Shown: positions 30,220 to 47,987 of the stretch, in pieces | How the letters are laid out: each line of letters opens with the position of its first letter | Position numbering within the stretch: the first letter of the stretch is position 1 | Source of the DNA: Alphaproteobacteria bacterium SO-S41 | GTDB taxonomy: Bacteria; Pseudomonadota; Alphaproteobacteria; Micropepsales; Micropepsaceae | DNA length: 64,000 nucleotides | Direction: 5' to 3' | Assembly (NCBI GenBank): GCA_019670725.1 | Contig: AP024629.1 | Location: 3,100,001 to 3,164,000, forward strand | The notes under the pieces: model-generated | What the model was told of the DNA's origin: nothing | Seen by the model: the letters and a program-made list of their open reading frames with translations, nothing else | Databases searched by the model: none | Position numbers and translations under genes: made by a program

Positions 30220-30328
30220 GTCATGGTGAGGTGCGCAGCGCGGCACGCGCGGAGCCTCGAACCACGCAGGCTGTCGCCGCCATCGTGCGTCCTTCGAGAC
30301 GCGGCCTTCGGCCGCTCCTCAGGATGAC
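30220..30328 (+). repeat. Family A dispersed palindromic repeat
   Basis: About 109 bp beginning gtcatggtgaggtgcgcag and ending ctcctcaggatgac, with internal hairpins gcggccttcggccgc and gcgcggcacgcgc. Nearly the same element is at 33427-33534 and 36774-36879. It overlaps the last codons and stop of g14. Confidence 0.85.
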
Positions 30329-30780
30329 GAAGAGGGACTGGCCGCCAGCTCCCGAAACTGAAACGCATACGCCCTGCGCCGCCGCCACCACGGCCCCAGC
30401 GCGGTCTCCGCAACCGCATGCCCACCATAGGCATGGATCATCCGATCCGGCCCACTCAGCACCGCCGCGTGCTTCGCCGGCGCGCGGGGCGAAAACCGGA
30501 ACAGCACCACGTCCCCCGCCACCGCCGCCTCCACCTCAATCGCCATCAGATGCCGCGCCAGCGCATCGCGCAGCGCCTCGACCCCGCGTTCCTCAGCCCA
30601 CAGTGGCGCATAGGCCGGCACCGGCTCCGGCTCTTCGCCGAACAGCGCCCGCCACACCCCCCGCACCAGGCCCAGGCAATCCGCGCCCGCACCCATGACG
30701 CTCGCCCGATGCCGATAGGGCGTGCCGAGCCACGCGCGTGCCGCCCCGACGACGCGCGCTGCCATCGCCGCATCGCTCAC
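30319..30780 (-). CDS. GTA NlpC/P60-like peptidase (g14, rcc01697-like)
   Basis: This is a tail-associated peptidoglycan peptidase that helps DNA entry. The catalytic Cys35 is in GADCLGLVR, with histidines at His104 (KHAAVL) and His116 (IHAYGG). At 153 residues it is normal for the family. The start overlaps g13 by 4 bp. The last residues (PSSSS and stop) are encoded by the family A repeat, the same ending as the unrelated g10.1 protein, so the original C-terminus has been replaced or extended by the repeat. Confidence 0.92.
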   Translation of the reverse strand: MSDAAMAARVVGAARAWLGTPYRHRASVMGAGADCLGLVRGVWRALFGEEPEPVPAYAPLWAEERGVEALRDALARHLMAIEVEAAVAGDVVLFRFSPRAPAKHAAVLSGPDRMIHAYGGHAVAETALGPWWRRRRAYAFQFRELAASPSSSS

Positions 30781-31655
30781 GCGGTGAGGCTCGCGCCGTC
30801 ATGGACATCCCCAGAAATCGGGTATCCCGCGGCCCAATCATTGCCAGGCATATGCGGAAAGCCGCGATAACGTGCAGAGTTCGCGAATTTCGTGCAACAA
30901 GCTGCAAATCTCTTGTCACAGCCGGCGGTCACGAAAAACGTGTCGCCCTCGGCAATCGCCAGCGGCGCGGCGCGCCACAGCTCGACGATCCCGGCGCCGG
31001 ACCGGCGTACCTCGGCGCGCAATTCGTGATTGGCGCCGCCCGTCCAGTGAATCACGCCGCCGGTAAACCAATCGTCACCAAACCCGCTGAGCCCGCTCAC
31101 GGTCAGCACGCGCCCCTCGGCGCTCGCGACGACAACGCCCGTCCCGCGATAGGCCGGGTCCGCCAGGTCGACGCCGCACCGTGCATCGCCCAGCACGGCA
31201 TCGCAGACGGGTTGGTAGGTTCGCCCCACCGGCACGTTCAGCCGCGCGGCGACGCTGCGCAGCTCCGCCTCGAAGCCATGGCTCCCACGCCTGACCTCGC
31301 CGATCTCGCCGCGCGCCAGCAGCGCGCGCTCGCTCACCGCGGCCCAGTTCACCAGAAAGGTCGAAACTTCGGCGCCGTCATAGGCGCCCGCCTCCAGCGC
31401 CGCGGCATCGATCCCGTCGGCCGACAGCACACCGGCAATTTCCTGATCGCCCACCGCGAGACCCAGCTGCGCGCCGATCGCCGAGCCCACAAACCCCGTC
31501 GCCGCGCGATGCGTCACGCCGTCAAACACGAGATCCCGGTCATGCTCGGTAAAGCCCAGCACCGCGCCATCGGTCAGGACGATCCGCCAGCACTTCGCCA
31601 GCGTCGTCGTGCCCCCATCCAGATGCGCCTGCAGGCCAGGAAGAATGTCACGCAT
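30777..31655 (-). CDS. GTA hub protein, DUF2163 (g13, rcc01696-like)
   Basis: The 292-residue protein fits the DUF2163/phage BR0599-like family, an iron-sulphur-containing tail hub component in RcGTA. The N-terminal part contains WRIVLTDGAVLGFTEHDRDLVFDGV; the C-terminal part carries cysteines in CDAVLGDARCGVDL and AGCDKRFAACCTKF, and the terminal FRGFPHMPGND-type motif appears here as YRGFPHMPGNDW. It overlaps g14 by 4 bp. Upstream a plus-strand gene separates it from g12. Confidence 0.93.
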   Translation of the reverse strand: MRDILPGLQAHLDGGTTTLAKCWRIVLTDGAVLGFTEHDRDLVFDGVTHRAATGFVGSAIGAQLGLAVGDQEIAGVLSADGIDAAALEAGAYDGAEVSTFLVNWAAVSERALLARGEIGEVRRGSHGFEAELRSVAARLNVPVGRTYQPVCDAVLGDARCGVDLADPAYRGTGVVVASAEGRVLTVSGLSGFGDDWFTGGVIHWTGGANHELRAEVRRSGAGIVELWRAAPLAIAEGDTFFVTAGCDKRFAACCTKFANSARYRGFPHMPGNDWAAGYPISGDVHDGASLTA

Positions 31656-31706: not shown

Positions 31707-32213
31707 GTGAAGACGAGTGAAGAATGGATGTCTCGGATATGCGACAACGCGACGGGCAACGCGGCCATGAGCCGGGTTAGCATTTCAAAGACTTTCGCCT
31801 ATTTGATCGGCGCAACGATCACGATGTCCTTGGCAGTCGTCTTCCTCGCGCCGCAATCAGAAACATTGATCTTTCTGCTTTGGCTATGTGCGTCGCTTTG
31901 TTTGACCGCGTTCATGCTGCTCATGCCCTATCCATCCGAAACCGAATGGAAGAAACTGAGCATCTATCCACGAAGCCTGTTTCTGCGTCGGATGCCAAAC
32001 CTATACGCCCAGCAATTCGGATTCTGGAGCGTGTTCGTATGTAACTTGCTCACGACAGTTCTCATTCTCAAGAATCTCGGGATTGGCCCGATAGGTCCAG
32101 AGTCTCTTCCTCCGGTTCTGTGGGCAGCCTCATTCTTCGCGTGCTTTTTCTGCGCGCTGGACCTCTATCGGTTCTACCGCCTCGTTCTGGTAAGCGGACG
32201 CAGCGACATCTAA
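31707..32213 (+). CDS. Four-helix membrane protein inserted in the GTA cluster
   Basis: The 168-residue product has about four transmembrane segments (about residues 28-48, 52-74, 98-122 and 133-155) and no recognised family. It is on the opposite strand to all surrounding GTA genes and its base composition is clearly lower in G+C with ordinary AT-ending codons, which points to recent transfer. Its stop overlaps the g12 stop by 4 bp in convergent orientation. Start choice is uncertain (31707, 31728 or 31767). It could be a cargo gene; no function can be assigned. Confidence 0.7.
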   Translation: MKTSEEWMSRICDNATGNAAMSRVSISKTFAYLIGATITMSLAVVFLAPQSETLIFLLWLCASLCLTAFMLLMPYPSETEWKKLSIYPRSLFLRRMPNLYAQQFGFWSVFVCNLLTTVLILKNLGIGPIGPESLPPVLWAASFFACFFCALDLYRFYRLVLVSGRSDI

Positions 32214-32842
32214 CGCTCCAGCACCTCCACCACCGGAATGTCCGGCACATCGCCGGCGCGGAAGGCGGACAGGCTGACGCTCAGCCGGTCGGTGTCGAAC
32301 CGCACGGGCACGTCGAACTCGAACCCCGCCGTGACGAACGCGCCGTCCGCGACCGCATCCGCGATCGTCACCAAGCCCGTCTCGCCGTTCACCGTGAAAT
32401 CGCCCGGTCCCAGCACAACAGAATTGATCGCAAGCTTCACGGTGCCCGCGACCGGCCGCGTGATCGTCCGCTCATACGAGCCCGCCGCATCCCAATAGGT
32501 CTTCACCAGCTGGAACGACGCGGTCACGCCGTCGCCCTCGCCGATCGCCTGGTCCAGCGCCGTCGTCGCCTGCAGCGGCGGGCACGACTTGAAGTCGAGA
32601 TAGTCCTTCCAGCGGAAGGCGTAGAGCCGCCCGCGCCGCGCCTCGAAGAACGCGATCACGCTGTGCAGATCGTCCAGCGACCTCAAGCCCACGCCGGCGT
32701 CATATCGCCGCCGGCTCATCGCCCAGGGCGTGTTGCGCTCCTCGCGGCCGCTGCCCAGCGTCACGATGTCGGTGCGCCGCTCCGGCCCGCCTGACGAGCC
32801 GAACGAGACCGGTGCGGGAAACCGCACGTCATGAAAGCCCAT
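32210..32842 (-). CDS. GTA distal tail protein, DUF2460 (g12, rcc01695-like)
   Basis: The 210-residue protein matches DUF2460: FHDVRFPAPVSFGSSGGPERRTDIV at the N-terminus and FFEARRGRLYAFRWKDYLDF in the middle. In RcGTA this is the distal tail protein joining tube and hub. It lies 1 bp after g11, in the usual order. Downstream, the convergent plus-strand membrane gene separates it from g13. Confidence 0.93.
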   Translation of the reverse strand: MGFHDVRFPAPVSFGSSGGPERRTDIVTLGSGREERNTPWAMSRRRYDAGVGLRSLDDLHSVIAFFEARRGRLYAFRWKDYLDFKSCPPLQATTALDQAIGEGDGVTASFQLVKTYWDAAGSYERTITRPVAGTVKLAINSVVLGPGDFTVNGETGLVTIADAVADGAFVTAGFEFDVPVRFDTDRLSVSLSAFRAGDVPDIPVVEVLER

Positions 32843-32843
32843 G

Positions 32844-33401
32844 TCACAAATTCCTGTTGCCGCGCATCACGGCGCGGTTGATGAGCGAGGCGATCTGCGC
32901 CTCCGACCGGATGAAGCTCTGCGCATCGCGCGCATGGACGGTGATCGACACAGCCCCACCCCGCCCGCTGCCGCCATTGGGCGCGATCGCGCCATGGCCG
33001 GCCGGCGTGAACAGCTCCGGCCCATGCTCGCCGACCAGATAGCTCCGCCCCGGCGCCACCGGCCCGCCCGTCGCCCGCGCGCCCCCGAAGTCAAACAGGC
33101 CCTTGAAGAATCCCTCCAGCGGCGCAGCGATGAAATTCTGCACGGCGAGCCGCCCAAGATCGGCGATCACCGCATCGACCATCCCGCGAAACGAGAACTC
33201 GCCCGTCCGCGTCGCGCGCAGGATCTGCGTCTCCAGCGTCGTGAAGCTGCGATCGAACGCCCGTTCCAGCAGCGCCGCACTCTCCGCCGCCGGCTTGGCG
33301 AGCCCCGCGAGCTGCGTCTCCACCGCCTCCGCCGCCCGCGACACGGCAGACAGGTCAGCCTCCACGCGCACCGTGCGCGCGTCGTCCTCGAACCAGGTCA
33401 T
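32844..33401 (-). CDS. GTA tape measure protein (g11, rcc01694-like)
   Basis: The 185-residue protein is a short tail tape measure, in keeping with the short GTA tail. It shows helical, Ala-rich sequence with TTLETQILRATRTGEFSFRGMVDAVI and the C-terminal GRSYLVGEHGPELFTPAG box that is shared by many tape measure proteins. It precedes g12 by 1 bp. The preceding gap to g10.1 is filled with a family A repeat. Confidence 0.92.
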   Translation of the reverse strand: MTWFEDDARTVRVEADLSAVSRAAEAVETQLAGLAKPAAESAALLERAFDRSFTTLETQILRATRTGEFSFRGMVDAVIADLGRLAVQNFIAAPLEGFFKGLFDFGGARATGGPVAPGRSYLVGEHGPELFTPAGHGAIAPNGGSGRGGAVSITVHARDAQSFIRSEAQIASLINRAVMRGNRNL

Positions 33402-33534: not shown

Positions 33535-33731
33535 GAAGAGGGATATGTGCGCCGCCTATCCGGAAACGCCCGCATCAGCGCCGCCATCTCAGCCACGCCC
33601 AGCGCCGTCACCGCCCCCGCATTCAACGCCCGCCACTCGCGCACCGACAGCCGCCAGAACCGCTCCGGCATCAGTCCGAACGCGCGCGCGGCGTGACGCA
33701 GAGCGGCGTCCCACGACGCCGTCCCCGTCAC
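33525..33731 (-). CDS. GTA tail assembly chaperone-like protein (g10.1, rcc01693-like)
   Basis: This 68-residue protein starts with a GTG at 33731 that overlaps the g10 stop by 4 bp. The segment AARAFGLMPERFWRLSVREW fits the small phage proteins of the TIGR02216 type found after g10 in GTA clusters. The C-terminus (YPSSSS and stop) comes from the family A repeat and is the same as in g14. Confidence 0.85.
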   Translation of the reverse strand: MTGTASWDAALRHAARAFGLMPERFWRLSVREWRALNAGAVTALGVAEMAALMRAFPDRRRTYPSSSS

Positions 33732-34024
33732 GCCGCGCCCGCCTCTGCGCTCGCTGCCGTGAAGGCCGCGGCGATGGCCCGCGCGACGTCGGCGGGATCG
33801 AGCGGTAACCGCTCCACCTGCCGCGCCGCCTCCAGCTCGCCGCCGCCCTTCAGCAGCGCGCGCAGGATGGCGACGAGATCGGTGGCCTTCAGCCGCTGCA
33901 TCCGCGTCGCCACATCGCCGCCCAGCGCCGTCTCGATCTCCGCCAGCGCGCCCAGCGTCAGGCACAGCACCAGACGCTGATCGCCGCAGACCAGATCCAC
34001 CTCGCCCCGCTGACCATTCGCCAT
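33728..34024 (-). CDS. GTA tail assembly chaperone (g10, rcc01692-like)
   Basis: The 98-residue protein fits the GTA gp10 family (LTLGALAEIETALGG, LVAILRALLKGGG, DPADVARAIAAAF). Start ATG 34024 shares one base with the g9 stop (TGATG); a GTG directly before it at 34027 is an alternative. It probably binds the tape measure during tail assembly. Confidence 0.88.
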   Translation of the reverse strand: MANGQRGEVDLVCGDQRLVLCLTLGALAEIETALGGDVATRMQRLKATDLVAILRALLKGGGELEAARQVERLPLDPADVARAIAAAFTAASAEAGAA

Positions 34025-34434
34025 CACGCCGCCTCGAAGCTCAGCGGCCCCGCCGAGTTCAGCGTCAGGCTGAACGTCGCCGCGCCGTCATGCGTCCCGG
34101 CATATTCCAGCGCCGCGATATGGAACGGCCCCTCGATCACACCGAAGTCGGGCACGACCACCTGGAACACCGGCGTCGCGCCGTCGAAGAACGCCGCGCG
34201 GATCGCGGCATCGCTGGCCGCATCCTTGAAGACGCCCGCCCCGGTAATCGACGCGGTCTTCACGCCCGCCCCCGCCAGGATCTCGCGCCACGCGCCTTCG
34301 CTGTCGGCATGGGTCGCGTCCGCGCCCGCCGCGCTTAGCTGGATCGCCCGCGCGCGCAACCCCGCGACCGTCGTGAACACACCCGGCGCGCTCTCCACCT
34401 TCAAAAGCAAAGCCCGTCCCTGCTGCGCCCCCAT
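34024..34434 (-). CDS. GTA major tail tube protein (g9, rcc01691-like)
   Basis: The 136-residue protein matches the TP901-1-type major tail family: N-terminal GRALLLKVESAPGVFTTVAGLRARAI and the middle GAWREILAGAGVKTASITG. It forms the tail tube. Length is as in RcGTA. The gap before it holds a perfect 15-bp inverted repeat. Confidence 0.92.
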   Translation of the reverse strand: MGAQQGRALLLKVESAPGVFTTVAGLRARAIQLSAAGADATHADSEGAWREILAGAGVKTASITGAGVFKDAASDAAIRAAFFDGATPVFQVVVPDFGVIEGPFHIAALEYAGTHDGAATFSLTLNSAGPLSFEAA

Positions 34435-34518: not shown

Positions 34519-34920
34519 TTAGGTCTGCTCCACCAGCGCCCTGAACCGGCCCATCGCGCGCCAGGTCTGCTTGTCTTTCTCCAGCGCCACCTCGGCGTCT
34601 TGGAAGAACACGCCGACCACGCGCCCGCCTTCGATCGTCAGCGCCGCGCCATCTAGCGCGACGCCACACCGCCCGATCAGGTTCAGCGCCGCCCCACGGC
34701 CGCCCTTGCGCACAAACGCTTGGAGCACGAACACGATCTCCTCGCCGCGTTCGCCGCCGGCATTCCACGCCTTGGCGCGCCACGGGCCGATCGCCAGATA
34801 TGGAAACACGCTCGCCGCCTGCGCCTCCTCCAGCACGCGGCCCGCCACGAGCGCCGCGACATCCGCGTCCGCCTTCAGCGCCGCGATCGCCGCCGCCTGC
34901 AAACCGTCCGACAGGCTCAC
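34519..34920 (-). CDS. GTA tail terminator, DUF3168 (g8, rcc01690-like)
   Basis: The 133-residue protein matches DUF3168: LQAAAIAALKADADVAALV at the start and KQTWRAMGRFRALVEQ at the end. It caps the tail and joins it to the head. Its start overlaps the g6 stop by 4 bp; in R. capsulatus a g7 gene lies between these two, which is not present here. Confidence 0.92.
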   Translation of the reverse strand: MSLSDGLQAAAIAALKADADVAALVAGRVLEEAQAASVFPYLAIGPWRAKAWNAGGERGEEIVFVLQAFVRKGGRGAALNLIGRCGVALDGAALTIEGGRVVGVFFQDAEVALEKDKQTWRAMGRFRALVEQT

Positions 34921-35495
34921 AGCCGCACCTCGCGATAGGGCGCCAGCAGTGCACTCACCCCCGCCGGCGTCGCCGCCTCCGGCGCGCCCAGCGAGTCGCG
35001 CCGCTCATAGGCATGCGCGACCAGCAGCAGAACGGCCGTCTTCAGCGCCTCCGGCACCGCCGCCGCATCCGCGTACCCACACCGCCACACCAGCTCGACC
35101 GGCCGCCACGCCCGCGCGCCCAACAGCGCGCCGCCCAGCCGCAGCCACACCGCGTTGGCGTCGGCATCGACGCGCACATCGTCCAGCGCCAGCGCCGTGC
35201 TGGTGCCGTCCTCCTTCGCCACCCGCGCCTCGACGAACGACAGATACGGCGGCCGGCGCAGCGCGAAGACGCGGAACGCACCGTGCGCCCGTCCCTCCGC
35301 GACATCGGCGCTCATCCGCCAGGTCTGCGGCAACAGCGCCCGCCCGGTCTCGGCCTCCACGCGCTCGCGCGCCGCGCCGATGAGGCGGGCGATCAGCGCG
35401 TCGTCCTCCTCGCCCGCCACGCGCAGGAACGCGCGCGCGTCCGCCACCGCCACCGGCTCCGCGGCCGGTGGCGTCACCCGCTTGAACGCTGCCAT
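34917..35495 (-). CDS. GTA head-tail connector/adaptor (g6, rcc01688-like)
   Basis: The ATG at 35495 gives 192 residues; a longer open frame upstream is out-of-frame capsid sequence. The N-terminal half (ADARAFLRVAGEEDDALIARLIGAARERVEAETGRAL) is the typical helical gp6-like connector; the C-terminal half (VELVWRCGYADAAAVPEALKTAVLLLVAHAYERRD) is the family ending. It lies 2 bp after the capsid gene and overlaps g8 by 4 bp, so there is no room for g7. Confidence 0.92.
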   Translation of the reverse strand: MAAFKRVTPPAAEPVAVADARAFLRVAGEEDDALIARLIGAARERVEAETGRALLPQTWRMSADVAEGRAHGAFRVFALRRPPYLSFVEARVAKEDGTSTALALDDVRVDADANAVWLRLGGALLGARAWRPVELVWRCGYADAAAVPEALKTAVLLLVAHAYERRDSLGAPEAATPAGVSALLAPYREVRL

Positions 35496-35497
35496 GT

Positions 35498-36733
35498 TTA
35501 GCTCGCCGCGAACTTCATCAGCTTGATCGCCTCGAAGTTCTGCACCCCGCCGCCGACGCGCTTGGTCGTGTAGAACATCACATAGGGCTTGTTGGAGTAG
35601 GGATCGCGCAGGATGCGGATGCCCTGGCGGTCGGCGATGAGGTAACCGCGCTTGAAATCGCCGAACGCGATCGAGAACGTGCCCGCGCCGATATCCGGCA
35701 TGTCCTCCGCCTCGACGACGGGATAGCCGAGCAGCGTCGCCGCCTGCCCCGCCGCCGCGCCGGGCTGCCAGATATAGTTGTCGTCGCCGTCCTTCAGCTT
35801 GCGCACCGCGGCTTCCGTCGCGCGATTCATCACCCACGATCCGTTCTGGCGATAGACCTGCTTGGGCGCATAGGCGAGATCGATCAGCGCATCGACGGGA
35901 TCGCCGCTCGCGAACGCACCCGCCGCGCCCGACAGCACGAAGCCGATCTTGTCCCAGGCCCAGCTCGCATCGGCGACCTTGTCGTAGCTGAGGAAGCCCT
36001 TCGGCTTGTTCGAGCCGTCGCCGGAAACGAACGCCGCGCCCTCCTGCGCCGCGAACGCGTGCTGCACCTCGTCGGCGACCCACTGCTCGACATCGATCAA
36101 CGCATCGTCGAGCAGGCTCTGCGTCGCGGCCGGCATGGCATAGAGCTCCATCGCCGGAAACTCGACGAGGGAAAGATCCGCCGTATTGGTCTGCGTCCGC
36201 GCACCCGTCTCGGCGGCCCAGCCGCTCGCGAAGCCGTTGCGGCTGACCGGCAGGCGGAAGCTCTGCCCCGCGATCTGCCGCACCGTCGCGATGCGGCGAA
36301 TGGGCGACACCTCGGCCAGCAGGCTGTCGATCCGGCGCTCGGTCTCCTCGGGCACCAGATAGCCGCCCTCGCTGTCGGTGCCGGCGGAGATCTTGTCCTC
36401 CTTCACCTCCAGCCGCGCGGCGTCGCCCTTCCGCACATAGGCGTCGAACGCTGCGGCCTTCTCATTAAGCGCCACCTCGCGCCCACCACCACCATGCGGC
36501 CGGCGCAGCTCCAACGCCATCCGGTCCAGCGCCGCCTTCTGCTCGGTCAGCGCCCGGTTGATGCGCTCGACCTTGTCGACCGTCACCACATCAGCCGACA
36601 GCTTCGCCTCGATCTGATCGAGGCGTTCATCGTTGGCGTCCTTGAATGCCTCGAACGCCTCCATCAACCCATCGGCCTCACGCCCATAGGCCTTCACCTC
36701 CGGAGCCGCCGGCCCCGAACCCATCTCGCTCAT
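35498..36733 (-). CDS. GTA major capsid protein, HK97 family (g5, rcc01687-like)
   Basis: The 411-residue protein has an N-terminal coiled coil (about 20-85) that serves as the delta/scaffold region cleaved by the protease. The HK97-fold region begins near residue 115 (GGYLVPEETERRIDSLLAEVSPIRRIA) and shows MELYAMPAATQSLLDDALIDVEQWVADEV. The C-terminus is VGGGVQNFEAIKLMKFAAS. Length and order match RcGTA. Confidence 0.95.
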   Translation of the reverse strand: MSEMGSGPAAPEVKAYGREADGLMEAFEAFKDANDERLDQIEAKLSADVVTVDKVERINRALTEQKAALDRMALELRRPHGGGGREVALNEKAAAFDAYVRKGDAARLEVKEDKISAGTDSEGGYLVPEETERRIDSLLAEVSPIRRIATVRQIAGQSFRLPVSRNGFASGWAAETGARTQTNTADLSLVEFPAMELYAMPAATQSLLDDALIDVEQWVADEVQHAFAAQEGAAFVSGDGSNKPKGFLSYDKVADASWAWDKIGFVLSGAAGAFASGDPVDALIDLAYAPKQVYRQNGSWVMNRATEAAVRKLKDGDDNYIWQPGAAAGQAATLLGYPVVEAEDMPDIGAGTFSIAFGDFKRGYLIADRQGIRILRDPYSNKPYVMFYTTKRVGGGVQNFEAIKLMKFAAS

Positions 36734-36879: not shown

Positions 36880-36898
36880 GAATACAAGTGCTCATTGG

Positions 36899-36961
36899 TC
36901 CTCCCCCGCTTGCGGGAGAGGGGGACCGCGAAGCGGTGGAGGGGGCGGATGCAGCGCACCG
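36899..36961 (+). repeat. Family B intergenic repeat
   Basis: 63 bp reading tcctcccccgcttgcgggag, then ggggaccgcgaagcggtgga and gggggcggatgcagcgcaccg. It matches 38285-38347 in all but a few positions and contains the hairpin accgcgaagcggt. Confidence 0.8.
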
Positions 36962-37536: not shown

Positions 37537-38025
37537 CTATCCCACCCGCGTCACCCGCGCCCCGGCCAGCATCGGGAAGGTCACCACCGACACCTCCCAC
37601 AGATCCGCCTCGATGATCGTCCGCCGCCGCGTCTTCGCATCCGTCCGGGCCCGGATCGTCTTGAAGCCGATGCTCAGCCCGTCCAGCGCGCCCTCGCGCA
37701 TCAGCGCCAGCACGTCGCGCCCGCGCGACAGCTCGGTCAGCACGCGCCCGCGCACGAACAACCCCACCGCGTCCTCATACAACTCCGTCCACACGCCCAG
37801 CGGCTCGGCCGCAATGTGCTGGTACAGCAGCTTCACGCCGCGCGGCCCCCGACCTTTCAGCCCGCGCGCGAACGCCCCGCGCGCCACCGTGTCGCCGCCG
37901 GCATCGGCGATGCCGAACAGGCTCGCATAGCCCTCGAACCGTCCGTCGGCACGCGCATCGAGCAGCCCGCCGGCCGCGCCCCGCTTCTCCGAACCGCGCC
38001 GCGTGAACCGCACCACGTCGGCCAT
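37537..38025 (-). CDS. GTA prohead protease, HK97 family (g4, rcc01686-like)
   Basis: The 162-residue serine protease matures the capsid. Family marks are FEGYASLFGIADAGGDTVARGAF near the N-terminus, VKLLYQHIAAEPLGVWTELYED with the catalytic histidine, and ALDGLSIGFKTI with the catalytic serine. The C-terminus is VSVVTFPMLAGARV. Its start shares one base with the g3.5 stop (TGATG). Confidence 0.93.
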   Translation of the reverse strand: MADVVRFTRRGSEKRGAAGGLLDARADGRFEGYASLFGIADAGGDTVARGAFARGLKGRGPRGVKLLYQHIAAEPLGVWTELYEDAVGLFVRGRVLTELSRGRDVLALMREGALDGLSIGFKTIRARTDAKTRRRTIIEADLWEVSVVTFPMLAGARVTRVG

Positions 38026-38267
38026 CACCGCCCTCCCATCTGATCGAGCTTCCCCTCGATGCGCTTCAACTGCTCACGGATCGCGGTCACTTGTTCCTCC
38101 ACGCGCGCCAGGCGCTCGACACCGCCGCTGCGTGCGCTCACCTCGCGCTCGACGCTCGACAGCCGCTCTTCCGCCGCGCCGGCCCACATCAGGGCTGCCC
38201 CGGTCTGCACGACCAGCGTCACCACAACGGCCAGCGGCACGCGGCGCTCCAGTTTGAACTCAGACAT
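38025..38267 (-). CDS. Small membrane/coiled-coil protein (g3.5, rcc01685-like)
   Basis: The 80-residue protein has one transmembrane segment (about 11-30) followed by a heptad-like coiled coil (about 34-78: LSSVEREV, RLARVEEQVTAIREQLKRIEGKL). A GGAGGAC ribosome binding site precedes the ATG at 38267. It is coupled to g4 and so is placed as g3.5; sequence identity to the R. capsulatus protein is not claimed. It is the last GTA gene before the prophage. Confidence 0.75.
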   Translation of the reverse strand: MSEFKLERRVPLAVVVTLVVQTGAALMWAGAAEERLSSVEREVSARSGGVERLARVEEQVTAIREQLKRIEGKLDQMGGR

Positions 38268-38284
38268 ACAATTGTCCTCCTTGA

Positions 38285-38347
38285 TCCTCCCCCGCCCGCG
38301 GGGGAGGGGGACCGCGAAGCGGTGGAGGGGGCGGATGCAGCGCACCG
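38285..38347 (+). repeat. Family B repeat next to the prophage boundary
   Basis: It matches the copy at 36899-36961 up to gcagcgcaccg and then diverges abruptly into the prophage end (attgtagcg instead of ctccctc), which helps to place the boundary. Confidence 0.8.
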
Positions 38348-38349
38348 AT

Positions 38350-38397
38350 TGTAGCGAGGCGTCGAATTCTGGAACTTGAGGCGTCGAATTCTGGAAT
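38350..38397. repeat. Right end of the Mu-like prophage with two tandem 22-bp sites
   Basis: A terminal TG at 38350 is followed by two adjacent 22-bp units (38354-38375 and 38376-38397) that share gaggcgtcgaattctggaa and agree at 19 of 22 positions. Mu has tandem 22-bp transposase-binding sites at its right end, so these are read as R1/R2-type sites. The flanking 5 bp, ccgat, is the expected target duplication. Confidence 0.75.
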
Positions 38398-38427
38398 ACT
38401 TTCCATTTGACGACTCGGGGGAAGTCA

Positions 38428-39309
38428 ATGGTCATAGAAGTCGATCCCAACTACTCGGGACTCGCTGGGCTCCCTTACAAGGTCGTTCGTATTGAGGCTG
38501 GTGTGCCAGGCAATCCTCGTGCTCTTCAGCACGGGACTGGATTTTTCTTCGCGATGGACGTTCTCGGTAGGGAACTTCCTATCATCATCTCGAACAAGCA
38601 CGTTCTCTCAGGAGCGAGCTATCTGTCGTTTGAAATGGCCCGACAGAAGAATAATCGCCGTGAATTCGCGCCCCCTGAAGTCGTCAGATTTCGAGGCGGA
38701 GCGCTCCCGGTTTTCGAGCATCCCGATCCTGAAGTTGATCTGGCTGCAGTTCCACTGGCTCCCATCTGGAATGAGATGCAGAAAAGAGGCGTAGAGCCAT
38801 TTCCGCTCGTCGAATTCATAGGCTCGCTGCCACCACCGTATATTGAGCAGGCGATACACGCCGCCACCCCCGCTTTGATGGTAGGTTTTCCGCAAGGGCT
38901 ACTCGACGAAGTGAACAATTTGCCGCTCGTGAGGCGCGGGATTTTTGCGACGCCCTACTCCGCCAATTACATGGGGAAAGAGGAGTTTGTGGTCGATATT
39001 GCCGCGTTTCCGGGCAGTTCGGGGTCCCCAGTCTACGCGGTCTTCGAGGGGGTGCTGCCTACAGAATGGGGCTTTACACATCTCAATCACCCAGTTGCCT
39101 TCCTCGCGGGCATTCTCTGGGGAGGACCGCAGTTTGCCGCCGAGGGCAAAATGATCCCGATGGCGGTTCCACAGATGGGGCCGATTACTGCGATTCCGGC
39201 CCACTTGGGTTATTGCATAAAGGCGAGGCGGATACTGGAACTAAAGCCCCTGATTGTCCGCCACATCCAACAGCATGCAATCGATCAAATTCCACCAGCG
39301 ACGTCTTAG
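38428..39309 (+). CDS. Trypsin-like serine protease, prophage cargo
   Basis: A GGGGAAG ribosome binding site precedes the ATG at 38428. The 293-residue product has a trypsin-like triad: His58 (SNKHVL), Asp104 (EVDLAAV) and Ser198 (PGSSGSP). There is no signal peptide, so it would act in the cytoplasm, unlike DegP. It is plus-strand, less GC-rich than its surroundings, and is the outermost gene at the right end of the prophage. Cytoplasmic trypsin-like proteases are found in several anti-phage systems, so a defence or exclusion role is possible but unproven. Confidence 0.8.
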   Translation: MVIEVDPNYSGLAGLPYKVVRIEAGVPGNPRALQHGTGFFFAMDVLGRELPIIISNKHVLSGASYLSFEMARQKNNRREFAPPEVVRFRGGALPVFEHPDPEVDLAAVPLAPIWNEMQKRGVEPFPLVEFIGSLPPPYIEQAIHAATPALMVGFPQGLLDEVNNLPLVRRGIFATPYSANYMGKEEFVVDIAAFPGSSGSPVYAVFEGVLPTEWGFTHLNHPVAFLAGILWGGPQFAAEGKMIPMAVPQMGPITAIPAHLGYCIKARRILELKPLIVRHIQQHAIDQIPPATS

Positions 39310-39371
39310 CGTTAGCCCATCCTTAAACCACCGTAAGGGTCCAATAAGGCGCCGCTGAACTGGCCTTCGCC

Positions 39372-40280
39372 CTATATTTTCACGCGCAAGGAAGCCGTGA
39401 GAGTTCGCCACGCATACGCTGCAGCCAGGCTGCAAACCCCGTTACCGGCGCCTCTGGTGCGGTCCAGCCCATCGGCCAGCCCATCATCCAGTCGGTGAAG
39501 GCTGGGTTGTAGGTCAGGGCACGCCGTGAGAGCGCGGTCCCAGGCAGCAAACTCACCTGGACCGGGGGCGAAGAGGGGCAGCTCGCTTGTTCCTTCGAGA
39601 AGCTGGCCCCAGCCGCCTTCATGGTCAGGTAGAGCAGCGTCCAGGCATGGGCCTCCATCATCGGGCTGACCTGCGTGCTGTTCAGCCAGTCGTTGGCCTT
39701 GAAGCGCGCGCCGTCCGGCCGGATGTGCAGCGTCACATGGTTGCCCGAGGCGGACGCAGTCGGCGTGTGCCAGTATGAATAGGCGGTGCCGGATCTGGCG
39801 AGCGCCGACTTCTCGCGCTGAAAACAGGCCTGCTTTGACGCCATAACCCATGCCGCGAAGCTCCGCGGCGACGTCGGCGAATCCCAGCGTGTAGTGCCCC
39901 TCGACGTTTTCGCAGAAGACGAGCGGCGCGCCGGATTCGCGGACGATGCGGGCAACGTCCGGCCATAGGTGTCGAGGGTCGGCCGACCCCTTCCGGTTGC
40001 CCGAGAAGCTGAACGGCTGGCACGGGTAACCGGCAAGGACGAGATCCACCTTGCCGCGCCACGGGCGGCCGTCGAAGGCTCTAAGGTCATCCCAGACAGG
40101 CGCCTGCGCCAGGCTCTCGTCTGCCATCCGCGCCACGAGGGTGGCCGCGGCATGGGCTTCCCGCTCGACGAAACAAACAGTGCGATATCCCGGCTCGGCG
40201 ATGTGCAGGCCGAGGTCGAGCCCGCCGTAACCGGCGCAGAGGGAGATGCCGGCGAGGCGGCCGACGGAAGATAGAGCCAT
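39372..40280 (-). CDS. C5 cytosine DNA methyltransferase
   Basis: The 302-residue enzyme would methylate cytosine at carbon 5 in DNA. It shows motif I (SLCAGYGGLDLG), motif IV with Cys87 (GYPCQPFSFSG), motif VI (CENVEG, 123-128), motif VIII (QIRHR, 162-166) and a motif X-like end (GAGNGVCSLAAAYAWRTL). It lies just downstream of com, at the place where Mu has mom, and probably protects phage DNA from restriction. AAGGA at 40292-40296 overlaps the com stop; it is 11 nt from this ATG but 6 nt from an ATG in another frame at 40285. Confidence 0.88.
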   Translation of the reverse strand: MALSSVGRLAGISLCAGYGGLDLGLHIAEPGYRTVCFVEREAHAAATLVARMADESLAQAPVWDDLRAFDGRPWRGKVDLVLAGYPCQPFSFSGNRKGSADPRHLWPDVARIVRESGAPLVFCENVEGHYTLGFADVAAELRGMGYGVKAGLFSAREVGARQIRHRLFILAHADCVRLGQPCDAAHPAGRRALQGQRLAEQHAGQPDDGGPCLDAALPDHEGGWGQLLEGTSELPLFAPGPGEFAAWDRALTACPDLQPSLHRLDDGLADGLDRTRGAGNGVCSLAAAYAWRTLTASLRVKI

Positions 40281-40285
40281 GTCAT
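39380..40285 (-). CDS. Alternative-frame ORF with a methyltransferase-like C-terminus
   Basis: This frame runs the whole length of the methyltransferase gene, starting 5 nt earlier (ATGACATGG). Its first 165 residues look like shadow sequence (Ser/Ala/Arg-rich). Its last 130 do not: WHTPTASASG, LTYNPAFTDWMMGWPMGWTAP and FAAWLQRMRGELSRL resemble the C-terminal part of other phage cytosine methyltransferase proteins. It may be a true overlapping gene, a frameshift product, or a relic of a fusion. Expression is unknown. Confidence 0.3.
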   Translation of the reverse strand: MTWLYLPSAASPASPSAPVTAGSTSACTSPSRDIALFVSSSGKPMPRPPSWRGWQTRAWRRRLSGMTLEPSTAARGAARWISSLPVTRASRSASRATGRGRPTLDTYGRTLPASSANPARRSSSAKTSRGTTRWDSPTSPRSFAAWVMASKQACFQREKSALARSGTAYSYWHTPTASASGNHVTLHIRPDGARFKANDWLNSTQVSPMMEAHAWTLLYLTMKAAGASFSKEQASCPSSPPVQVSLLPGTALSRRALTYNPAFTDWMMGWPMGWTAPEAPVTGFAAWLQRMRGELSRLPCA

Positions 40286-40290
40286 CAGAG

Positions 40291-40304
40291 GTCCTTCACG
40301 GGAC
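40291..40304 (-). promoter_or_regulatory. Possible Com-controlled hairpin over the methyltransferase RBS
   Basis: In the minus-strand mRNA gtcc (40304-40301) can pair with ggac (40294-40291), leaving cgtgaa as loop, so that the AAGGA ribosome binding site is partly in the stem and the com TGA is in the loop. In Mu, Com melts a comparable stem at the mom start. The stem is only 4 bp, so this is a tentative reading. Confidence 0.35.
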
Positions 40305-40472
40305 GCTCCGGCTGCTCTTGGCGGCTCCGGCGTTGGGTTTTGATACGTCGACGATCCGGTCGCACCTGCGGCACTTGATCTCGACGCGGCCCACGATGGC
40401 GTTGCTTTGTTGACGGAACAATAACGCGCGGCAAAAGGGGCACCGCGCGTCCACTAAGGGACTCGACTCCAT
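40296..40472 (-). CDS. com: Mu-like Com zinc-finger translational regulator
   Basis: This 58-residue gene has two CxxC pairs: Cys11/Cys14 (RCPFC) and Cys34/Cys37 (KCRRC), the zinc knuckle of Mu Com. In Mu, Com binds the mom mRNA and opens its translation start. The next gene here is a C5 methyltransferase instead of mom, starting 10-16 nt after the com stop. Position near the right end also agrees with Mu. Confidence 0.85.
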   Translation of the reverse strand: MESSPLVDARCPFCRALLFRQQSNAIVGRVEIKCRRCDRIVDVSKPNAGAAKSSRSVP

Positions 40473-41688: not shown

Positions 41689-44600
41689 CTAGCTGGGGGG
41701 ATAAACTTCGAACATGAACGTGCCGGGCAACGAAGATGGGCTCGACGCGCTCGTCGTCACGTAGGTGACGCCGGAGAAAGCGGTGATCGTGGCGTCGACG
41801 CCGGGGTGAACGCCGAAATGCTTGGAGCCGTCGTTCGCTCCGATGGCGGGCACGTTGTTGACAGCGGCTGTCCAGCCGGTGAACGCCTTGGTCGAAACAC
41901 CCGGGGTCTTTAGGGAGGCTTCAGTCGTGTGGAAGCCGATCGCCTCGGTGCGGATGAACGTGTAACTCCCACCATTCGGGCGGTAATAGAGGGCGGCCTC
42001 GCAATACCAGTCGGTCTCATAGCTGCCGCTCCCCGGGATCTCCTCGACCGATGAGACGCACTTCGCGGTGCCGCTGAAGGTGAAGACGTAGTTGCCGCCA
42101 TCGGCGTCGTCGGTCGTCGGTTTCGAGCAGCGCCAGGCTGGCGTTCCGCCGATATTCGTGCCGGCGTTCGAGGTCTGACCGGTGGGCGTGCCGGGCGTGA
42201 ATTTCTTGCAGTAGGGCGTGAAGCCGGTCGGACCTGCTGCGTCAGCCCGAACCACCCAGGTTTCGGTCCCTGAGACCGCGGGAGGGCTGTTGATCACCGG
42301 CTTGATGTACGGGACGCCGCTGCCATAGCTGCCTGTGAAAGTGACCGGTACACCATCCGACCCCGGCACAAGGTTTGGCCTCACCGCCACGCGGTGCGCG
42401 ATGGTGGCGACGGCCGAGGGGTAGACGCTCAGGTTTCGAATCATAGCGTCGTTCAGCTCGACGCGGCCGCCATTCACCATGAACGCCGGCACGTCCGACG
42501 TTCCGTCGCTGATCTTGAACACGTCGGTCAGCCAGACGACCTCCGACGTGTCGCCATCGTTCACGCTCGTCATGCCGCTGATCTTGCCGCCGACGTTCGT
42601 CTTGAAGCCCTTGATGGCGCTGGCCTTGCCGAGCGCATCGACCGCGACCGAGCCGAAATCCTCCAGATCGGCCGACATGTCGTCGAAATCGGCGGACAGG
42701 ATCGTGAACTGGCTCGCGATCGCCGCTTCCGCGTCGGAGAGCGCGGCGCTGACGGCGGTCACGCTGGCCCGCGTCGCCGTCTCGCGTACGATATCGACGG
42801 CGACCAGCACCGGCCCGCCGGTGAAGCTGGCTTTGAACCGCAGCTGCCAGACCCTGTTGGCATTGTTGGTGATGCCCGTCGGGTTCGTGACGACCCATTC
42901 GAGATCGAGCGTATCTCCGCCGGCGACGATCGCATTGGCCGAGTTGTTGACGCTCGGATCGACCGCCTGGCCGTGCTTCAGGCTGAACCAAGCGACGCCC
43001 GGTAGGTGGAGCACCGGCCAGATCGCGCCGGCGAACGACACGCCTGCATTCCAGCACCGGAAGCGGACCTTGCAGGTTTCGCCCGGATTGACGGGAAAGA
43101 AATCGGTGCTGAAATCATACGTACCGTCGCCAAACTGCAGCCCGCGGCGCTGCTCCCACCACGACGCCAGATCTGTTCCGGTCACGCCGGCCGGCAGGTT
43201 CCAGAAGGACGGGTCGCGGATTTCCGGGTCGGGCAGCAGGCTCTCGCCGCGGCCGGAGAATTTCGCCTCCAGCACCGCGCGGGCGACCGCCTCGGCGCTG
43301 TCGCCGTCGACCCGTGCCGCGTTGATCTCGGTCAGCTTGGCGCTGAGGTCCGCTTCGCCATCGCGCGCCGCCGTCAGCTCAGTCTCGATGGCGGCGAGCG
43401 CGCCGTCCTGGTCGGCGAGCGTCCCGCTATGGGTGGTCAGCGTGGCCTCGGCAATCTCGACCCGGCTATCCATCGCCTCGATCAGGCCGGCCAGCGCCGT
43501 GTCTCCGTCCTCGCGGGCGACCGCGACGGCCGTAACGCTGGCCCGCGTCGCCGTCTCGCGCACGATGTCGAAGGCGATCGCGACATAGGCGCCGGTCCAA
43601 CTGCCCTTGATGCGCAGCTGCCAACGCGCATTGGTATTGTTGGTGACGCCGCTGGGGTTCGTGACGACCCATTCGAGATCGCCGGTGTCGCTCGTCGCGA
43701 CGATCGCGTTCGCAGCGTCCGGCGCATCGTCTATGTCGATGCCTTCGCCGTGCTTCAGGCTGAACCAAGCGACGCTCGGCATGTGGATCAGCGGCTGAAC
43801 GTTGCCGGCGAAACCCGGATTCGCGACGATCCGGGCTGTGATCTTGTAGCTGGCGCCGATCGCCACCGGGAAAAAGTCGCTGCTGAAGTCGTAGGCTCCG
43901 GGCGCCAGAACGATGTAGCGCGGAAACCGCCAGCCGCTCGTATCGCCGAACGTCACGCCGGCCGGCGCGTTCCAGAACGTCGGATCGCGAAGCTGCGGGT
44001 CGGGCAACAGGCTCTCGCCGCGACCGACGATCAGATTGGCCAGCCGCGTCACCGCGGCGTCCTGGTCTGCCACGGCGTCATCGAGCGCATCGGAGAGATC
44101 GCTCACGTCGCCGGCGACATCGGCGATATCGGTGTTCAACAGAACGATATCGGCCTCGGCCGTCGCAAGTTCGGTGAGAAGCTGGGTGACGGTCTTGTCG
44201 CCGACCTTCGTACCGGTGGGCGCGCCGACCGAGCCGACCGGTACGAAGGCCGTGCCGGCGCCGTTCACCTGATACTGGATGCTGCCGTCGAGATAGATCT
44301 TCCCCGGCTGCGCGACGCCCGGTGCCGGCAGCACGCCTGAAACCACCTCGACCCGCTTCGACGCCTCGCCGTCGATCTTGGTCTGCAGCGCCTTCTCGGT
44401 CGCAAGCGCCGCTTCGAACAGGATCTGAAACGCCGCCCCGTCGATGGACGTGACACCGTCCTCATCCCAAGGGACCGGCGTCTGCATGAGGTCCAGGAAG
44501 TCGGCGAGATCATCGATCGCCAGCTCGTGGTTCGTCTTCGTGGTCGTGATGCCCAGCCCCGTCGCACGCGAACTGAGGGCGGGCTGAGCCGCCAGCAAGG

Positions 44601-47490
44601 CTTTGATGAGGGGGTTCCGGGTCTGCTTTTCGGCCGGCGAGTAAGTGTCGTCGTAGGCGGCGTCACCGCCGCCCGTGCCGAGATCGCCCGTCCATTCGAA
44701 CCACGGGCCGTCTTCGAAGCGCCCTTTGGCCTGCACGCGGACGGTGCGATCGGGGCCGGACTTCAGCAGAACGACGAGCGGCGAGACGCGGGAATCGCCC
44801 TTAGGAAGGCCATCGACTTCCACGCGATAGCCGCGCGAGGCGCTGGCGCCGACCACCGTGATCGTGACCTCGATCCAGCCGGTCGAGCCGCCCGGCGACA
44901 CATTAAGACTGTCGATCGTGAGATCTTCAGCGTCCGGCCCGTCAGGATCCGAGACCTCGGCCGGCGGATCGACCTCGTCGGCCGTGTAGACCTCGGGCGC
45001 GTCGTTGACGAGGGCGATACTAGACTTGTCCCAAGACTTCGGCCGCGCCTCGACCACCCGCATATCGAGCGCGAACTGGTCGAGCGATTTGCCGAACACG
45101 AAATGGCTGGGCAGACGCCGGCCGTTGGCGTTGTCGATCGTCAGCAGCGTCATGAGGCTCGGCGCGCCGCCGGGCAGAGGCTTGGCGATCCAGCCGCGTG
45201 CGGGGTTGCCACCTGGATCGCGGAAGATCTCGAAAGGCCCGATCGCGCGGCCGTTCGGCCGCGTGAAGGTCGCGTAATGCGCCAGATCGTCGTCGCGCCA
45301 GTCGAAGGCGATCGCGGCGGTGACGACGAAGCGGTCAGTGACCTCCTGGACAGTCTTCAGCTCCGCGACGCTGCCATAGCGCGGCACATCGTGGCTGAAG
45401 GCGATCTTGCCACCCGGAAACAGTGCCCTGCCTTCCATCTCGCTGTCGATCGAGACGAAGGTGCGGCGCTTGAGATCGGAGGTCGCCTCGTAAATGCCCT
45501 CCCTGAACGCGTGGGCGCGCTGCTGGACGCCGGGAAGCACCAGGCGCTTGGGATAGAGCCCCGGTGAACCCGTGGGCACGCAGAGCACGCTGGCGTCGAT
45601 CTTCCAGGTGCGCTCGTCGGTATAGATCACCTCGACGCAGTCCGTGCCCTGCTCGGACCCGAACAGCGTATCGAGCGCGAAGGATCCTTTGACGGTGTTG
45701 AGCGGCGTGAAGGCACTGGCATAGGCGGCGCGCGGCTCGTCACGGATGAAGCTGACGATGCCGCCCGCGATCAGCGGTCGTGCGCGGCCAGCGCGGGCGA
45801 CGACGCGCAGTTGCTCCCAGGCGGACTTCCGCTGGTCGAAGACGAAGTCGAACTTGTCGCCCCGCGATTCCCAGGTGGCGTGGAGGGTTTCCAGCGTGGC
45901 GACATCGAGCCGGCTGTCCGGCCAGTACCGCCGCACCATGTAGGCAAGGACCGGCGCGATGGCGCGCGTCGGCGCGGGAGCGGCCCAGCCACCGCCGCCG
46001 CGCCACGGCAGCCAGCGGGTCTTGATCGCATAGACCTGGTTGAGCGAATTGCCTTGGACCTGCTCGTTGGCCTTCGCACGCAGCAACAGGACCGATCGTC
46101 CGGGCCAGCCGGTCGATGGCGCGAAATATGCCTTCAGCGAGCCCCAGACCGTCTCATCGATCACTGCCGTCTTGTTCGACCGGCCGCTGGTGACGCGCCC
46201 GCGGACCTCCCAGCGATCATAGGCGTCGCTGAGCGTGCATTTGAAGCTGCAGCGGACCGGCTTGTTGATCTGCCCGCGCGTGATGTTCTCGAAGATGTAG
46301 AGGTGCCAGTCCGCCAGCGGCTCGCCCACCTCGTCGATCGGTCGCGCCCAATAGCCAACCGTGACCGTGATTGGTGCCGCGGTGCCGTCATTGTTCGCCC
46401 AGCCGAGGCCGCGCGGGAAAAGCACGTCGACGCCGAAGCCGATCGCCTTGGTGCCGGCGGCGTTGAGGACGTAGCCGCCGAGCCAGTTGTCATCGTCCGG
46501 CCCATCGGCCGCGACCATGACTGCGCCGCTGACCTCCGGGCTCGCTTTGACGACGTCGGTGAACAGCGTTGGCACGTCGCCGGGATGCACGATCTGGTAC
46601 TGGACGCTGTCGTAAGCGGGGTTTCGAACGCCGTCGCGGACCAGATAGGTGTCCGCGAAGCCGAATTCTTCCCAGGTGAATTTGCCGATACCGGCCGACA
46701 GCGTCTTGTGAACGACGGGATCGTCGTTCTCGTATTCGATGTAGTCCTCGGCCGCGCTGTCGAGCACATGGCGCGTGCAGCCCACCGCCTCCGGCACGGC
46801 CTGGCCGAGGCGCGGGAAATTGCCGCTGCCCGAGATCGAATAGGTCGGGCTCGCCTGTTCCGCATTGCCGAGCTGCGCCTTGGGCGCCGGCATCAGCGCA
46901 TTGACAGCCATGTTGAGGCCGGCCGCGACGACGGCGGTGGAGACCGCGAGCGCGGTTTCGGCGCTTGTGAAAAGCGCCATGCCCTCAGGACCAAGCGCCA
47001 ACGCCAGCTCGGGTGCAACGATCGCCGTCACAACGAGAATGGCGATCGCCGCGAGGATCCGCAGCGCCTGGCTGTTCTTGCCGCCCTGCGGCAACGCCAT
47101 CGCCAGCAGCACGTCGCCATCACGGACCCGTGTCGCTGCCCAATCCGCGCGCGCCACCGGGATCAGGTTGAGCGTGACGAGGATCGGCATGCCGAGATGC
47201 AGATCCGTCGCGTCGAGCGCCGCGGCGATCGTGTCGCCGCTATTGATGACGCGTCGCTCGGCCACCATCTCGGCCGACCAAACCGCTCCGGTCCAGACCA
47301 TATAGGCCTTGCCGTCCGTCGTCGGCGCACCGCCGATGCTGTCGATCGGCACCAGTGAAGTGCCGTCGTACCAATCCCTTGTCGCGGCATTGCGCCTCAG
47401 CATGGCGTTCAGCGCGAACTCGATCTCTTCGTCGGTTGCCTTTCGGGCGGGCGACATGGTGTCGTCCGCATAAGGGATCAGGGCGCTCAT
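41689..47490 (-). CDS. Phage tail-tip/host-specificity protein J
   Basis: The start at 47490 (ATG overlapping the previous stop) gives 1933 residues; the frame is open further but out of the known gene order. A hydrophobic stretch occurs at about 140-190 (ILAAIAILVVTAIVAPELALAL). The centre matches lambda-J-like tip proteins. Two tandem modules of about 255 residues each begin GRGESLLPDP (near nucleotides 44030 and 43256), each a beta domain plus coiled coil. The C-terminal region has ALGKASAIKGFKTNVGGKIS, as in the DUF1983-type end of J. It determines receptor binding. Confidence 0.88.
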   Translation of the reverse strand: MSALIPYADDTMSPARKATDEEIEFALNAMLRRNAATRDWYDGTSLVPIDSIGGAPTTDGKAYMVWTGAVWSAEMVAERRVINSGDTIAAALDATDLHLGMPILVTLNLIPVARADWAATRVRDGDVLLAMALPQGGKNSQALRILAAIAILVVTAIVAPELALALGPEGMALFTSAETALAVSTAVVAAGLNMAVNALMPAPKAQLGNAEQASPTYSISGSGNFPRLGQAVPEAVGCTRHVLDSAAEDYIEYENDDPVVHKTLSAGIGKFTWEEFGFADTYLVRDGVRNPAYDSVQYQIVHPGDVPTLFTDVVKASPEVSGAVMVAADGPDDDNWLGGYVLNAAGTKAIGFGVDVLFPRGLGWANNDGTAAPITVTVGYWARPIDEVGEPLADWHLYIFENITRGQINKPVRCSFKCTLSDAYDRWEVRGRVTSGRSNKTAVIDETVWGSLKAYFAPSTGWPGRSVLLLRAKANEQVQGNSLNQVYAIKTRWLPWRGGGGWAAPAPTRAIAPVLAYMVRRYWPDSRLDVATLETLHATWESRGDKFDFVFDQRKSAWEQLRVVARAGRARPLIAGGIVSFIRDEPRAAYASAFTPLNTVKGSFALDTLFGSEQGTDCVEVIYTDERTWKIDASVLCVPTGSPGLYPKRLVLPGVQQRAHAFREGIYEATSDLKRRTFVSIDSEMEGRALFPGGKIAFSHDVPRYGSVAELKTVQEVTDRFVVTAAIAFDWRDDDLAHYATFTRPNGRAIGPFEIFRDPGGNPARGWIAKPLPGGAPSLMTLLTIDNANGRRLPSHFVFGKSLDQFALDMRVVEARPKSWDKSSIALVNDAPEVYTADEVDPPAEVSDPDGPDAEDLTIDSLNVSPGGSTGWIEVTITVVGASASRGYRVEVDGLPKGDSRVSPLVVLLKSGPDRTVRVQAKGRFEDGPWFEWTGDLGTGGGDAAYDDTYSPAEKQTRNPLIKALLAAQPALSSRATGLGITTTKTNHELAIDDLADFLDLMQTPVPWDEDGVTSIDGAAFQILFEAALATEKALQTKIDGEASKRVEVVSGVLPAPGVAQPGKIYLDGSIQYQVNGAGTAFVPVGSVGAPTGTKVGDKTVTQLLTELATAEADIVLLNTDIADVAGDVSDLSDALDDAVADQDAAVTRLANLIVGRGESLLPDPQLRDPTFWNAPAGVTFGDTSGWRFPRYIVLAPGAYDFSSDFFPVAIGASYKITARIVANPGFAGNVQPLIHMPSVAWFSLKHGEGIDIDDAPDAANAIVATSDTGDLEWVVTNPSGVTNNTNARWQLRIKGSWTGAYVAIAFDIVRETATRASVTAVAVAREDGDTALAGLIEAMDSRVEIAEATLTTHSGTLADQDGALAAIETELTAARDGEADLSAKLTEINAARVDGDSAEAVARAVLEAKFSGRGESLLPDPEIRDPSFWNLPAGVTGTDLASWWEQRRGLQFGDGTYDFSTDFFPVNPGETCKVRFRCWNAGVSFAGAIWPVLHLPGVAWFSLKHGQAVDPSVNNSANAIVAGGDTLDLEWVVTNPTGITNNANRVWQLRFKASFTGGPVLVAVDIVRETATRASVTAVSAALSDAEAAIASQFTILSADFDDMSADLEDFGSVAVDALGKASAIKGFKTNVGGKISGMTSVNDGDTSEVVWLTDVFKISDGTSDVPAFMVNGGRVELNDAMIRNLSVYPSAVATIAHRVAVRPNLVPGSDGVPVTFTGSYGSGVPYIKPVINSPPAVSGTETWVVRADAAGPTGFTPYCKKFTPGTPTGQTSNAGTNIGGTPAWRCSKPTTDDADGGNYVFTFSGTAKCVSSVEEIPGSGSYETDWYCEAALYYRPNGGSYTFIRTEAIGFHTTEASLKTPGVSTKAFTGWTAAVNNVPAIGANDGSKHFGVHPGVDATITAFSGVTYVTTSASSPSSLPGTFMFEVYPPS

Positions 47491-47987
47491 GCCGCCGCCT
47501 CGGCGGCCATCGCCCCACCGCTGGGCGGCTGGTAGACGAGCCAACGCAAGCGTTGGAAGCCCATGACGCGCAGTTCCAGCAGACTCGACGTGATGACGCC
47601 ATTGCCCTCGATGGCGTGCGCGACGATTCCGCCGTCGAGCATGAGGCCGAGACCGACATGATGCGGCAGGTTCGATCGGCCCATGAGGCAGATCGCGAGA
47701 TGGCTCAACCGGTCGCCGGCACGCCAATCTTTCCGGATCGTCCGGCGCGCCAGCGTCGCGACCAGCTCGTGAATGGGCGCGGTCGGCAGGTCGAGCCCGG
47801 CGAGTTCCTTCAGGCCGTGCCGCACCAGGCCCCAGCAGCCGAACTCGTACGGGCCTTCTGCGCCATCGACCCAGGGCCGGCCGATCAGGCCATTCACCCA
47901 GCGCGCCGCGGCCGAGCGCTCCCATGCGCCCGGCTCGATCGTGTATGGGATGTCAGCGCTGTGCGAGGCCACGATAGTCCTCGACAC
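47487..47987 (-). CDS. Phage tail NlpC/P60-like peptidase
   Basis: The 166-residue protein has a cysteine peptidase layout: Cys51 in FGCWGLVRHGL, His110 in PHHVGLGLM and His124 in IVAHAIEG. It would cut peptidoglycan during DNA injection, like lambda K. It overlaps DUF1833 by 35 bp if the ATG at 47987 is used; a GTG at 47972 is possible. It is followed at once by the J gene. Confidence 0.85.
   Translation of the reverse strand: MSRTIVASHSADIPYTIEPGAWERSAAARWVNGLIGRPWVDGAEGPYEFGCWGLVRHGLKELAGLDLPTAPIHELVATLARRTIRKDWRAGDRLSHLAICLMGRSNLPHHVGLGLMLDGGIVAHAIEGNGVITSSLLELRVMGFQRLRWLVYQPPSGGAMAAEAAA

Follow-up and report, generated by a model that had tools for sequence, protein, structure and literature searches.

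What has become of the front half of a gene transfer agent (GTA) cluster that breaks off at g3.5 beside phage genes? This is the question raised by the stretch of Alphaproteobacteria bacterium SO-S41 DNA analysed here, a window of 64,000 nucleotides (G000:C1:3100001-3164000) from a genome of 4.44 Mb in a single contig. An earlier note on this DNA saw a Mu-like prophage landed inside the GTA cluster, where it would cut the GTA transcript and may silence gene transfer, and our data support this reading, albeit with the cut transcript and the silenced transfer as parts that we infer. That GTA genes from g3.5 to g15 run up to 38267 is confirmed by Pfam matches and identity to congeners, all of them on the minus strand: g3.5 (38025-38267), which has no Pfam family and was assigned by position and by 56-72% identity to congeneric g3.5 copies adjoining g3; g4, the prohead protease (37537-38028; PF04586, Peptidase_S78, E 5e-30); g5, the major capsid (35498-36733; PF05065, Phage_capsid, E 2e-92); the g6 region, a head-tail connector whose start codon is not settled (34917-35520; PF05135 and a tblastn match in relatives); g8, tail completion (34519-34920; PF11367); g9, the major tail tube (34024-34434; PF06199); g10 (33728-34027; PF11836, GTA-gp10); g11, a short tape measure (32844-33401; PF09718); g12 (32210-32842; PF09343, DUF2460); g13 (30777-31655; PF09931/PF09356); g14, a cell-wall peptidase (30319-30780; PF00877, NLPC_P60); and g15 (26330-30184; PF13547, GTA_TIM, E 9e-145).

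As the earlier note had remarked, g3, g2 and g1 are missing before g3.5, and none of them is present in the window. Once the next 56 kb past 64000 were taken in (extended coordinates, which become genome coordinates on adding 3100000), they were found just past the far end of the prophage, on the GTA strand (minus) and in the expected order, in line with the check that the note had proposed: g3, the portal (extended 79980-81146; PF04860, E 7e-88), g2, the terminase (extended 82085-83398; PF03237) and, beyond g2, a g1-like ORF (extended 83292-83843). In a whole-genome profile search PF04860 has a single match (C1:3180001-3180993, minus) and PF03237 has its best match at C1:3182622-3183224 (minus), the only other PF03237 matches genome-wide being to the prophage's own terminase region. 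That g1 to g3 might sit at another locus is ruled out, since the sole portal match adjoins the prophage. Thus homologues of g2, g3, g4, g5, g9 and g12 to g15 lie on one strand in conserved order and are contiguous apart from the prophage. The cluster shares with the RcGTA-type systems of R. capsulatus (RcGTA) and C. crescentus (CcGTA) the order g1-like, g2, g3, g3.5, g4, g5 to g15 on one strand, a GTA_TIM g15 and a DUF6456 gene, for a putative regulator, that lies apart from the cluster; it differs from them in the prophage that splits g3 from g3.5 and in a TonB-like gene between g2 and g3. The operon is not uninterrupted, but the insertion between g3 and g3.5 bears on the cluster's working and not on its homology to the RcGTA type. 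The TonB C-terminal-domain gene itself (extended 81698-82060, minus; L012:3198-3560) had no detectable counterpart between g2 and g3 in the GTA regions fetched from congeners.

The prophage measures 41,520 bp and runs from 38350 past the window end to extended position 79869 (genome C1:3179869), its in-window part (38350-64000) having the late genes on the minus strand, TGTA...TACA ends, the 5-bp duplication and PHROGs matches. Between its first base and the start codon of g3.5 lie 82 bp, the very distance that had been claimed before. The location of the end near g3.5 stands, but not its label as the left end: 38350 is the right (late-gene) end of the phage, while the MuA/repressor end at 79869 is outside the window. 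Both ends are flanked by a perfect 5-bp target-site duplication, CCGAT (38345-38349 and extended 79870-79874), which agrees with the Mu target motif NYSRN as used in PMC12486242. In window orientation the termini read TGTAGCGAGG... and ...GATGATCACTTACA, that is, TG...CA ends, and the right-end sequence TGTAGCGAGGCGTCGAATTCTGGAAC (38350-38397), in which GGCGTCGAATTCTGGAA occurs twice in direct orientation, agrees at 16/26 positions with the inverted left end TGTAAGTGATCATCCAATTCTGGAGA. Taking the terminal 26-mers as inverted repeats, the next-best boundary pair with a 5-bp duplication reached 13 matching positions, and duplication plus 16/26 match were equalled in 0/100 shuffles of the two boundary regions. 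These ends and their duplication, with g3, g2 and the g1-like ORF on the far side, bear out a Mu-like prophage inside the GTA cluster.

The insertion leaves the GTA coding sequences unbroken. Without the phage the g3/g3.5 spacer would be 187 bp, and the 82 bp on the g3.5 side (38268-38349) contain a G+C-rich repeat of dispersed type, for which the genome has 29 further matches. Copies of this repeat within the GTA cluster, at 38280-38348 and 36882-36961, recall the Caulobacter terGTA repeats, which are GC-rich as well. We rejected a GC-rich spacer hairpin as a GTA terminator, since it folded no better than shuffles did (z -1.24). The g3.5 frame stays open on the minus strand (38025-38450) through the spacer into the phage end, with a TTG at 38450, probably by chance. 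As for the phage ends in viral contigs, a MuA search for relatives there yielded no true one, and a 17-base end motif was dropped, its matches to 3 contigs being about what we estimate chance to give for the size of the collection.

By its gene set the prophage looks complete. On the late-gene strand (minus) we find a tail tip or J-like protein (41689-47925; phrog_469, phrog_31), the tape measure (48926-51310; phrog_24) and the whole Mu-type head and packaging module, namely the major head protein (54859-55959; phrog_1005), the head maturation protease (56197-57303; phrog_976), the gp30/F-like minor head protein (58660-60024; phrog_220), the gp29-like portal (60195-61739; phrog_113), the gp28-like large terminase (61739-63379; phrog_2) and a gp27-like protein (63376-63945; PF11985), whose frame reaches upstream to 64032. 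Further on come the minus-strand early genes MuB (extended 70516-71514; phrog_296, E 7e-66) and MuA, the DDE transposase (extended 71555-73642; phrog_310, E 6e-139), and then, side by side and divergent, PHROGs matches to Ner (extended 76087-76362, minus) and a CI-like repressor (extended 76444-77127, plus). The prophage thus combines a MuA-type transposase and MuB-type ATPase with TG...CA ends and a duplication, the head module and a repressor/Ner pair; further PHROGs matches are to a ParB-like protein, Gam, a DNA methyltransferase and connectors. At the right end an accessory gene for a trypsin-like peptidase (38407-39309; PF13365, phrog_7688) lies on the plus strand, opposite to the late genes, and is followed by the N-terminal part of a C5 cytosine methyltransferase (39372 to about 40280, minus; PF00145, residues 11-172 only). 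A plausible C-terminal continuation of the latter sits in another frame, which suggests that the gene carries a frameshift, mutational or programmed.

Among alphaproteobacterial Mu-like siphophages we compared vB_ThpS-P1, vB_RhkS_P1, Ochrobactrum POA1180, Sinorhizobium Aussie and StopSmel, and RcapMu. MuA, MuB, Gam, Ner, the Mu-type head, siphophage-like tail genes, TG...CA ends and a 5-bp duplication are common to them and the prophage, which in contrast has its own ParB-like gene, two methyltransferases and the trypsin-like gene. Since its MuA is just 35-40% identical to those of vB_ThpS-P1, vB_RhkS_P1, POA1180 and Aussie, we regard it as a new phage. Within our family sample of 96 genomes this MuA is unique to the source genome, consistent with a recent arrival.

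How the site looks without a phage can be seen in relatives, the comparison that the earlier note had called for. In three congeners g3 and g3.5 stand side by side, separated by 8 nt (G004), 8 nt (G003) and 122 nt (G002), so that g3 adjoins g3.5 in relatives rather than lying elsewhere, and GTA genes, not others, are what follows beyond the prophage here. Spacing at larger scale was taken from genomes with g3 and the g15 TIM gene on the same contig: for 25 genomes of the family the distance between them ranges from 4.1 to 14.2 kb and for 20 of the class from 7.5 to 20.1 kb, as against 51.05 kb in the source genome, or 9.5 kb once the phage and one duplication are subtracted. Among 75 named relatives (g3 loci), the g3-g4 gap is <=3.7 kb throughout. 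Neither the 45 genomes (g3-g15) nor the 75 named loci (g3-g4) hold another GTA cluster with a prophage-size insertion, and hence recurrent insertion at the GTA locus of independent genomes was not found in them. A literature search, which left most subscription papers outside its reach, likewise turned up none that names a GTA cluster harbouring a prophage.

Other changes to the cluster were seen along the way. Four loci of the large sister genus g5 (L023, L028, L030, L034) have about 0.6-1.2 kb extra between g3 and g3.5, so the g3/g3.5 junction takes cargo in other lineages too. Two genomes from that genus have a g3 with 82-84% identity to the g3 of R. electricum, which makes it probable that the source genome belongs to the same family as Rhizomicrobium. 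A recognisable g3 is present in just 40/96 family genomes. G063 (L141, G063:C11:48001-66000, 3404-7994) keeps g2 and g5 to g15, while g3, g3.5 and g4 are not recognisable; about 4.5 kb of other sequence at the g3-g4 place implies that g3 to g4 were replaced or lost in another lineage. In G020 (L136 9004-12517; L072 seems to be an identical record) g5 is fused at about residue 238 to g15 at residue 329 by a deletion that removes g6 to g14 and leaves a decayed GTA cluster. The congener G001 shows no g3 either; it was set aside as a possible parallel, since its contig with g15 breaks off within that gene. G018 and G019 have three GTA_TIM genes each, on separate contigs, pointing to additional GTA-like or phage-like clusters.

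To our minds, these data are best explained by a Mu-like phage that transposed into the spacer between g3 and g3.5, with GTA production likely lost through polarity for as long as it is resident. The phage would have entered by MuA-type transposition at this short spacer, duplicating CCGAT and parting the operon into an upstream half (g1-like, g2 and g3) and a downstream half (g3.5 to g15) that now lie 41.5 kb apart. Because a single promoter ahead of g1/g2 drives clusters of this type, an insertion after g3 should deprive g3.5 to g15 of their transcript, and it is this single promoter of RcGTA-type clusters that makes a cut transcript and silenced gene transfer plausible. Consistent with this, transcription of CcGTA starts at one point only, ahead of its first gene (PMC11150451). 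The polar effect would cost the cell its capsid, protease and tail expression, so that the lysogen would make no GTA particles and would be spared death by GTA-linked lysis. Precise phage loss would restore the operon, as would its replacement by an unsplit allele through homologous recombination. If, on the other hand, a promoter in front of g3.5 has escaped notice, the downstream genes could stay on.

A different possibility, to which we give only a small chance, is that the GTA had already ceased to function when the phage came, in which case the insertion was neutral and silences nothing. GTA decay is indeed common in the family, as the scarcity of g3, the g5-g15 fusion of G020 and the g3-to-g4 gap of G063 illustrate. 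Here, however, reading frames are open in the GTA genes either side of the prophage and align full-length or nearly so with congeneric copies, and the DUF6456 gene is intact, all of which speaks against prior decay, even if intact GTA genes alone are no proof that the GTA worked before the insertion.

Similarly improbable, yet worth weighing, is a scenario where the GTA is not silenced because an anti-terminated polymerase of the GafZ-like kind crosses the same-strand prophage, giving weak GTA expression along with transcription of the phage early genes and antisense RNA to the repressor. It turns on the single DUF6456 protein of the source genome, encoded by an intact gene away from the GTA cluster. 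DUF6456 matched Caulobacter only among 14 control genomes, and in the family it tracks the GTA portal (36 genomes with both, 4 with portal only, 8 with DUF6456 only, 48 with neither; Fisher p 4.5e-14). From the Caulobacter match and this co-occurrence we take the protein to be a putative GafZ/GafA-type regulator. DUF6456 without a recognisable g3 occurs in G001, G028, G044, G047, G054, G056, G063 and G078, which suggests that the regulator outlives the portal in these eight genomes or that assembly breaks there. In Caulobacter, GafZ is an anti-terminator that carries RNA polymerase past terminators across the 14-kb CcGTA cluster (PMC11150451), and such a mode of transcription could weaken the silencing claim. 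Moreover, early and late genes of the phage run in the GTA direction, with the repressor opposite, and the MuA-side end beside g3 showed no terminator-like site on the minus strand, which makes it a real alternative that GTA transcription runs on into the early genes of the phage. Near 41640 only a weak site of this kind turned up, so that read-through may occur. Against this, GafZ rescue past one terminator is partial even in Caulobacter, with an 8-fold loss (PMC11150451), and the extra 41.5 kb here go far past the range tested; also, the identity of DUF6456 with GafZ is itself presumptive, and no adjacent GafY-like gene was identified in the source genome. If read-through did hold, the picture drawn before would be reversed, with GTA activation disturbing the phage. 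We think it quite unlikely, though, that this goes as far as a circuit in which the GTA transcript enters at the MuA side, transcribes MuA and MuB and runs antisense to the repressor, so that GTA-on cells release infectious phage and not GTA.

Could the phage instead prefer GTA clusters, or profit from them by blocking suicidal GTA lysis? This we hold to be very doubtful. In its favour, GTA release kills the producer (PMC13236601), so that a GTA-off lysogen escaping the accompanying lysis would favour the phage, and mobile elements recurrently insert in the competence genes comYC, comFA, comK and comM (PMC4774983), where host DNA-exchange machinery is likewise interrupted. The competence-gene elements are, however, integrase-targeted and recurrent, whereas the source genome has just one Mu-type insertion, near-random, which lies in a spacer and not in a coding sequence and which affects a donor-side system. 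In Citromicrobium, too, a Mu-like phage shares its host genome with RcGTA-type genes. Transpositions sampled there during lytic growth included some into GTA-like genes, which proved to be neutral targets (PMC12486242); those hits came from induced phage particles, unlike the stable lysogen here with its insertion fixed in the assembly. Since Mu targets nearly at random, a single insertion is no proof of targeting, and the operon without the phage makes up 0.4% of the genome, which renders one random Mu-type landing there unremarkable, the more so as the genomes and loci surveyed hold no second case. Chance landing suffices for the insertion site; targeting is unlikely, and chance with a possible later benefit more likely. 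An assembly error joining a phage contig to the GTA cluster, conceivable in that the genome is a public assembly, can be dismissed, as a wrong join would not yield a 5-bp direct duplication around TG...CA inverted ends and one contig carries both operon halves in order.

So polar loss of the GTA while the phage is resident is the most likely outcome, and it would probably leave a cell line without gene-exchange particles for the duration of that residence. Mu-like prophages and RcGTA-type clusters are known kinds; it is their combination that is informative, as it would mean that a selfish element has, in nature, knocked out a GTA operon by polarity and left its genes apparently intact. A comparison of strains that carry the phage with strains that lack it would reveal if the GTA pays its host and if the prophage gains from a GTA-incapable one, and the locus offers a concrete idea of how GTA loss, which recurs in the family, may begin.
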